Shown: piece by piece, positions 56,163 to 57,663 of the stretch | Numbering within the stretch: the first letter of the stretch is position 1 | How the letters are laid out: each line of letters starts with the position of its first letter | NCBI GenBank assembly: GCA_913058265.1 | Contig: CAJXPQ010000010.1 | Span: 1-64,000 of the forward strand | Direction: 5' to 3' | DNA length: 64,000 nt | DNA from: an uncultured Oligoflexia bacterium | Lineage (GTDB): Bacteria; Bdellovibrionota; Bacteriovoracia; Bacteriovoracales; Bacteriovoracaceae | Made by a program: the position numbers and the translations under genes | Notes under the pieces: generated by a model | What the model saw: only the letters and a program-made list of their open reading frames with translations | Told to the model about the DNA's origin: nothing | Databases searched by the model: none

Positions 56163-56540
56163 ATGCTTAACATTTTAGTCGTTGATGATGAAATTGATAT
56201 TTTAGAAACAATTGTGGATACTTTAGAGATCGAATTTGATCCAAGTAAGGTAACAATTGCCCAAGCGATAAATGGTGTTGAAGCTTTAGCATTATTCAAT
56301 AATGGAGAGCAGGTTTTTGATCTTGTTGTAACAGACTTAAATATGCCTGAAATGGATGGTATCGAACTTACTCAAAAGCTTAAAGAGATCAGAAGTGATC
56401 TTTCAGTAATCGTTTTTACTGGTCATGGAGACCTGGAAGAAAATCATAAACTAGAGGAACTTGGTGTTCTAGCAATGATTAAAAAACCTTATGTGGAAGA
56501 GTTAGTTCAAACAGTTATAAAATCAATACCTCAGACATAA
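56163..56540 (+). CDS. Single-domain response regulator
   Basis: 125 residues, receiver only. LVVDDEID acidic pair, LVVTDLNMPEMDGIELT (phospho-acceptor Asp about 59), VFTGHGD (Thr) and IKKPY (Lys). No output domain, so it signals by protein contact, as in chemotaxis or phosphorelays. A soluble histidine kinase gene lies 1.3 kb away at 57874-58593. It converges with the PilZ gene, overlapping by ten bases. Pairing is inference. Confidence 0.9.
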   Translation: MLNILVVDDEIDILETIVDTLEIEFDPSKVTIAQAINGVEALALFNNGEQVFDLVVTDLNMPEMDGIELTQKLKEIRSDLSVIVFTGHGDLEENHKLEELGVLAMIKKPYVEELVQTVIKSIPQT

Positions 56541-57628
56541 GTAACAAAGGCTTTTGGATCTAACATTATCTCGCCTGTTGCCTCTTTATCCCTTATAATT
56601 TTAATGATTTCATCTTGTGCTTTGCAAACAGCTGACGCTGGTCTTTGCTGATTAAGCTTATCTAGAAATTCCTCTTGCATCGTATCTGTCAATTCAGAAA
56701 ACAGCTCATAGATTAACTCCTTACTTGATAATCTTAGGGCAACGGCCAGTACATCTTGGTTGACTGTTTTCAAAAACCCTACTTTCATCTGTACTGTCAT
56801 GTAGCGAAGACGATCTAGGTACTCGATATTATCTTTAATATTTACTGCAAGAACTTTATTTTTAACTTCTATATTATTTAGTGTGTTTATTTGGCCTTCC
56901 TCATCAAGTCCGCAATACTGATCAGGTCTAAGTCCTTGTGTTTTAATTTGTTTAATTTCTATTAGACTTGTAATTGATTTGTAGCTAATAGAGTCTAGCT
57001 GATCATTAAAGGCAATGCCAATCTTATACATGTCAATCTCGTTGGATTGGTATGGCCGGATATATGAGATTTTCACTTTGAAGGGAGTTGGAAGTTTCTG
57101 ATCTGTTATATCTTCTAACAATAAATCGTCACCTGCTTTAATTTTATCAATATGTTCTTTGCCAAGAACGAGTCCAGCTCCGGAAGTGGAAATGTCTACA
57201 ATAAAACTAGAAATTTTAAATTCGGGTTCATTGTTGGAGTCTTTAATCGTGGAGCAAAATGTTATATTTTTGTGATCTTGATACTTATAATAGAAGCGTT
57301 TGGTTTGTCTTTTCTCGAAAACTTGTAAGTCTGAGGGGAGAGAGAAATCTAAATACGTACCAACTAAATTATAGTTCTCTCTTTTGAAGATTATATCTAG
57401 GCTTTCTATATGTGCATAAAAGGGTTCACCTTTTACGAACTCAAGTTTTTCATCATCTATAATCTTTATTCTACAGTTTTGTTGAGATGCTTCAATTAAT
57501 TCTGCGGGGAAGGTAACCCTAGTACCTCCGGCCTTAATTTGCCATATTGTGAACCGAATTTTTTGTTCACAGGCCATATTTAAACAAGTGCTGATTATAT
57601 CTTTTTGATATGTTTTCCAGTATTGCAT
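56531..57628 (-). CDS. PilZ protein with FliG C-terminal-like domain
   Basis: 365 residues. An N-terminal ~95-residue beta domain resembles the YcgR-N type. PilZ follows (about 105-220) with the c-di-GMP motifs intact: KRQTKRFYYK (Arg107 and Arg111, RxxxR) and DISTSGAGL (145-153, DxSxxG). After a linker, residues ~288-354 (QDVLAVALRLSSKELIYELF, then SELTDTMQEEFLDKLNQQ, then AQDEIIKIIRDKEATGEIM) match the pattern of the FliG C-terminal domain that meets the motor stator. This suggests a c-di-GMP-controlled protein acting at the flagellar rotor. The FliG likeness is read by eye and needs a profile search. Confidence 0.8.
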   Translation of the reverse strand: MQYWKTYQKDIISTCLNMACEQKIRFTIWQIKAGGTRVTFPAELIEASQQNCRIKIIDDEKLEFVKGEPFYAHIESLDIIFKRENYNLVGTYLDFSLPSDLQVFEKRQTKRFYYKYQDHKNITFCSTIKDSNNEPEFKISSFIVDISTSGAGLVLGKEHIDKIKAGDDLLLEDITDQKLPTPFKVKISYIRPYQSNEIDMYKIGIAFNDQLDSISYKSITSLIEIKQIKTQGLRPDQYCGLDEEGQINTLNNIEVKNKVLAVNIKDNIEYLDRLRYMTVQMKVGFLKTVNQDVLAVALRLSSKELIYELFSELTDTMQEEFLDKLNQQRPASAVCKAQDEIIKIIRDKEATGEIMLDPKAFVTYV

Positions 57629-57663
57629 AAGACTATTATATAGTGAGTTGAGAATTTTAATAT

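Follow-up and report, generated by a model that had tools for sequence, protein, structure and literature searches.

What does a bacterium do with a single protein that joins a c-di-GMP sensor to a piece of the flagellar rotor? The question is raised by one gene of the window, the 64,000-nucleotide stretch of DNA analyzed here, which comes from an uncultured member of the Bacteriovoracaceae. The gene (56531..57628, minus strand) opens with an ATG at 57628 and runs for 365 codons plus a stop; the frame is upheld by 28 full-length orthologues. The original prediction described its product as a PilZ protein fused to a FliG C-terminal-like domain, and this is borne out by two Pfam hmmscan matches above their cut-offs, as well as by the folds discussed below. 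PilZ (PF07238) matches residues 106-223 with 27.0 bits (cut-off 22.5), and FliG_C (PF01706) matches residues 252-356 with 50.9 bits (E 2.1e-13, cut-off 23.3), spanning positions 2-108 of the 108 in the profile. FliG_C is the only FliG domain found by hmmscan, with no match to FliG_N or FliG_M, and the NCBIfam fliG model gives just 26.1 bits where its cut-off is 226.7. When PDB sequences were searched with phmmer, FliG chains alone matched the fusion, with weak scores. Pfam matches to PT-HINT and MgtE_N fall under their cut-offs and were set aside; the MgtE_N match overlies the FliG_C region and is taken as an echo of its fold.

An AlphaFold2 model built from the 29 orthologues has a mean pLDDT of 86.6 but a pTM of 0.45, so the single domains are well predicted while their relative placement is uncertain. 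Residues 1-104 (57317..57628, minus strand) form a YcgR-N-like split barrel, a domain that was overlooked at first, the PilZ and FliG_C parts having been named correctly. Residues 1-106 of the model superimpose on the E. coli YcgR-N structure 5y6h with Z 13.9 and an rmsd of 2.2 over 101 residues. The PilZ domain follows (residues 105-224, 56957..57316, minus strand), and residues 105-227 align with 5y6g, the YcgR PilZ domain with c-di-GMP, at Z 11.2. In the model's secondary structure, the joint between sensor and FliG_C is made of the C-terminal PilZ helix and a short linker (residues 219-242, 56903..56974, minus strand), in which G240 is invariant. The FliG_C domain then occupies residues 243-357 (56558..56902, minus strand), including the tail end of ARM_C. 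Residues 269-357 fit FliG C-terminal domains with Z 10-11.7 and rmsd 1.7-2.5 over 86-96 residues, the best being 3usy (Z 11.7, rmsd 1.7 over 89) and 1lkv (Z 11.5), and MotAB-bound FliG (8ucs_H) is matched at Z 10.1. The likeness to FliG thus goes beyond generic helices, since the full profile and FliG folds are both matched. As modeled, the fusion is a complete YcgR with an added FliG C-terminal domain. It shares the YcgR-N and PilZ order and the RxxxR and (D/N)xSxxG motifs with the YcgR brake of E. coli and with VCA0042/PlzD, PP4397/FlgZ and MotI, and it resembles YcgR-type structures (3kyf, Z 14.7; 5y6f, Z 14.3; 3kyg, Z 12.5). However, its C-terminus is a FliG_C domain of about 115 residues, where YcgR has a short tail.

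The three-part architecture is present at full length in 29 of the 129 genomes of the class, from 12 genera by genome labels; the order-level and class-level searches cover these same 129 genomes. The orthologues in the 28 other genomes share 27-60% identity over their full length. Named relatives are metagenome-assembled genomes of Halobacteriovoraceae and Bacteriovoracaceae, and four close relatives came from the contig scan. When the family profile was run against 368 genomes from across the phylum, no further full-length fusion came up, the in-depth distribution search being confined to Bdellovibrionota. Chance, an assembly artefact or a misread frame were considered and ruled out by the recurrence in 29 genomes, some of them assemblies of 2-10 contigs. 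In line with what had been supposed, no described family with this order came to light: the PilZ plus FliG_C architecture is found neither in NCBIfam nor in the literature searched, which includes few subscription journals, and within the same coverage it is not described in work on FliG paralogues of Bdellovibrio-like bacteria. The fusion is apparently undescribed. The natural joining of the YcgR module to FliG_C, shared by 12 genera, provides evolutionary evidence of an independent kind that both belong at one site.

Both the motifs and the fold give good support to the sensor step. In the RxxxR motif (R107-R111, 57296..57310, minus strand) both arginines are found in 29/29 orthologues, and in the (D/N)xSxxG motif (D145-G150, 57179..57196, minus strand) so are S147 and G150, while position 145 is Asp in 28 and Asn in one. 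The c-di-GMP motifs are therefore intact, as first claimed, and their invariance makes c-di-GMP binding likely. Conservation is uneven along the chain. Among the 29 orthologues, mean pairwise identity is 30% in YcgR-N, 37% in PilZ, 47% in the linker region (residues 209-242) and 54% in FliG_C. In 13 shared genomes the FliG_C identity of the fusion (61%) exceeds that of a stand-alone FliG_C family, here called type A (44%), and that of FliG itself is 81%. FliG_C is thus the most constrained part of the fusion, more so than type A, and judging by this constraint it probably has a specific partner. Its conserved surface consists of R275, Y276, R299, K303, E304 and K324. This bears on a plainer reading of the protein, as an ordinary brake that works through its YcgR half, with FliG_C merely a tail for localization or oligomerization. 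E. coli YcgR does brake the motor without any FliG_C (PMC10140304), and in genome G029 the fusion is followed directly, in tandem, by a 238-aa YcgR-N and PilZ paralogue that lacks FliG_C (L068:8718-9434, minus strand). But a mere tail is hard to reconcile with a FliG_C conserved far above the YcgR half, and we consider this reading quite improbable.

The residues through which FliG meets the stator tell a different story from the fold. Three residues of E. coli FliG, R281, D288 and D289, matter most, and two others, K264 and R297, come second; the MotA partner of D289 is R90, and that of R281 is E98 (PMC6079164, PMC7564593). The 29 fusions were compared at these positions, in E. coli numbering, with 21 FliG of the same genome group plus that of T. 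maritima. The FliG set keeps its charge at all five, with K264, R281, E/D288, D/E289 and K/R297 each in 22/22. In the fusions, position 264 is Arg throughout (29/29). Position 281 is occupied by N (10), T (9), S (5), R (4) or G (1), so that R281 is kept in 4/29, and position 288 is Asp or Glu in 16 of 29. Position 289 holds K (24), R (1), E (2), Q (1) or S (1), that is, Lys or Arg in 25/29. At position 297, which falls in a loop that is shorter here, the residue is P, S or A, and R297 is found in 0/29. By alignment with the 22 FliG sequences, the counterpart of the FliG torque helix is formed by residues 315-325 (56654..56686, minus strand), with K324 at the D289 position, and the switch to a positive charge there is conserved across the fusions. 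Judged from these alignments, the fusion FliG_C retains the fold but not the stator-facing electrostatics. The stator-contacting FliG-C pattern that had been predicted therefore holds for the fold and mostly fails for the contact charges. A MotA of the window's genome (L100) has R90/E98-like residues, as read by eye from its sequence. Stators were found with the broad profile PF01618, the MotA_N profile (PF20560) having found none. A second, divergent MotA-like protein (L101, G000:C7:34955) is without an obvious R90/E98 pair. On the sensor side, the fusion differs from the YcgR brake in lacking the MotA-contacting F117, which directly precedes the second Arg of RxxxR: at its counterpart, position 110, the orthologues have E, K, Q, D or other residues, and none has Phe, although F117 has been mapped in E. 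coli alone and may not define all brakes.

The fusion is not a rotor subunit. The original prediction had allowed that it might act as a brake or replace FliG. Replacement by an alternative, c-di-GMP-responsive rotor subunit could appeal to the FliG_C fold, yet the protein is without FliG_N and FliG_M and so cannot be anchored to FliF or FliM in the canonical way. Moreover, a complete FliG is present in the genome together with FliF, and the MotA-meeting residues R281 and D289 are not retained. This reading is disfavored, and we give it very little credence. A direct action as brake is possible. E. coli YcgR binds both MotA and FliG (PMC10140304, PMC12713396), which makes the rotor-stator interface the natural guess for the site of the fusion. 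Once c-di-GMP is bound, the C-tail helix of YcgR becomes exposed and touches MotA at residues with which the FliG torque helix also makes contact (PMC12713396). Given that YcgR binds FliG and that the two have a common site on MotA, a shared site would lead one to expect a fusion of both partners.

We tentatively favor a YcgR-type c-di-GMP effector whose FliG_C-derived domain serves for docking, acting as a brake or curb on the motor. In this model, c-di-GMP would bind between YcgR-N and PilZ and, by analogy with E. coli YcgR, would move or free the C-terminal part of the fusion. The FliG_C-like domain could then dock at the rotor-stator interface, on MotA, FliG or FliM. Once docked, and without the charges by which the stator could drive it, it would slow or uncouple the motor. 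Such an action would be YcgR-like, with a built-in relative of the very rotor surface for which the YcgR C-tail competes. We infer that the target lies at the motor. The folds, the c-di-GMP motifs, the constraint on FliG_C, the presence of FliG_M in 29/29 fusion-bearing genomes and, in the fusion's own genome, a canonical FliG and a MotA with R90/E98-like residues all count for this. Counting against it are the lost or reversed torque charges, the missing F117 counterpart, the grouping with type A, the lack of flagellar neighbors or promoter and the uncertain placement of the domains in the model. An unlikely variant is a decoy: c-di-GMP would expose a FliG_C look-alike whose key charge is reversed, which would occupy the stator and leave the true rotor undriven. 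It is similarly doubtful that the fusion belongs, as the decoy view would have it, to a whole group of recombined rotor pieces that includes FliG_C types A and B and a FliM/FliG_M composite. Where YcgR acts is still debated, the rotor, the stator or both having been proposed (PMC12713396), and the fusion offers a single chain for structural study of this contact.

The origin of the FliG_C part complicates the choice of partner. In a tree of FliG_C domains, which are short and make it moderate evidence, the fusions form one clade (0.893) grouped with type A (0.906), separate from FliG (0.947) and from a second stand-alone family, type B (0.999). Types A and B (L052:8641-9102 and L053:3874-4299) are families of FliG_C proteins of about 140 aa, both without the torque charges of FliG. 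Type A is the closest relative of the fusion FliG_C, sharing a YLT-x-x-M motif and the loss of R281 and D289, but it has no sensor domain, is less conserved and occurs in most genomes of the class. FliG and both stand-alone types are found in most of these genomes, the fusion being an additional copy, and the window's genome has all four. In the Bacteriovoracales, which include predators that swim to their prey and then attach to it, FliG_C has thus become a module open to reuse.

With the stator-facing charges gone and this relation to a stand-alone family, a non-flagellar partner is almost as likely as one at the motor. FliG_C would then have been repurposed, and the fusion might be a c-di-GMP-controlled adaptor for, for example, surface attachment, gliding or prey entry; on the same tentative footing, types A and B would belong to the same repurposed set. 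The grouping with type A rather than FliG fits such a role, and so do the genes near the stand-alone types. Type A usually comes directly after the gene of an HldD-like heptose epimerase; type B, in the window's genome, follows a coiled-coil gene. Neither lies beside flagellar genes. Against repurposing, the sensor half has the architecture of the YcgR brake, and the four genomes that lack any FliG_C, stand-alone types included, lack FliG_M as well, which is suggestive of a flagellar tie. That their genus, g27, has no FliG_C was dropped as proof of that tie, as weak FliF-like matches remain there. FliG_M in the fusion-bearing genomes marks the flagellar FliG, but it is found in 118/129 genomes of the class, so its co-occurrence with the fusion is weak evidence.

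The surroundings of the gene, which are scattered, also fit repurposing better than the motor. The fusion gene converges with a gene for a single-domain response regulator (56163-56540), overlapping it by 10 bases, and a small histidine kinase gene lies upstream on the same strand after a 245-base gap. Of the 15 neighborhoods read, that of G028 alone has these two neighbors in the same position. Neighbors vary by genus; no flagellar gene was seen beside the fusion in any of the 15, and a conserved flagellar operon was rejected on that basis. Nor is there enrichment of a sigma-28-like promoter, the mean score being 8.45 observed and 8.27 in shuffled sequence. No link to a flagellar regulon was thus detected, which is a further difference from the YcgR brake.

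Other unusual proteins were met in these genomes. A 296-aa protein carries FliM (PF02154, 36.6 bits) followed by FliG_M (PF14841, 27.6 bits), and is encoded on the minus strand at G000:C8:71611-72501 (L093:3612-4502); this chain is another recombined rotor protein. Open frames of about 447 aa with a similarly weak FliG_M match occur in many genomes of the class. At L090:4173-5543, at L092:5620-6999 and in genomes of another family, f22, there are YcgR-N/PilZ-like proteins that are 454-490 aa long and have about 250 extra C-terminal residues; in L090, the one that was scanned, this extension has no Pfam match. Finally, a perfect -10 box, TATAAT, missed by the promoter scan, lies at 57635-57640 of the window (minus strand) and ends 6 bases before the ATG of the fusion gene. 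TATAATA-like boxes stand at the equivalent place in several orthologues (L006-L009, L016), which suggests that the fusion transcript is leaderless.
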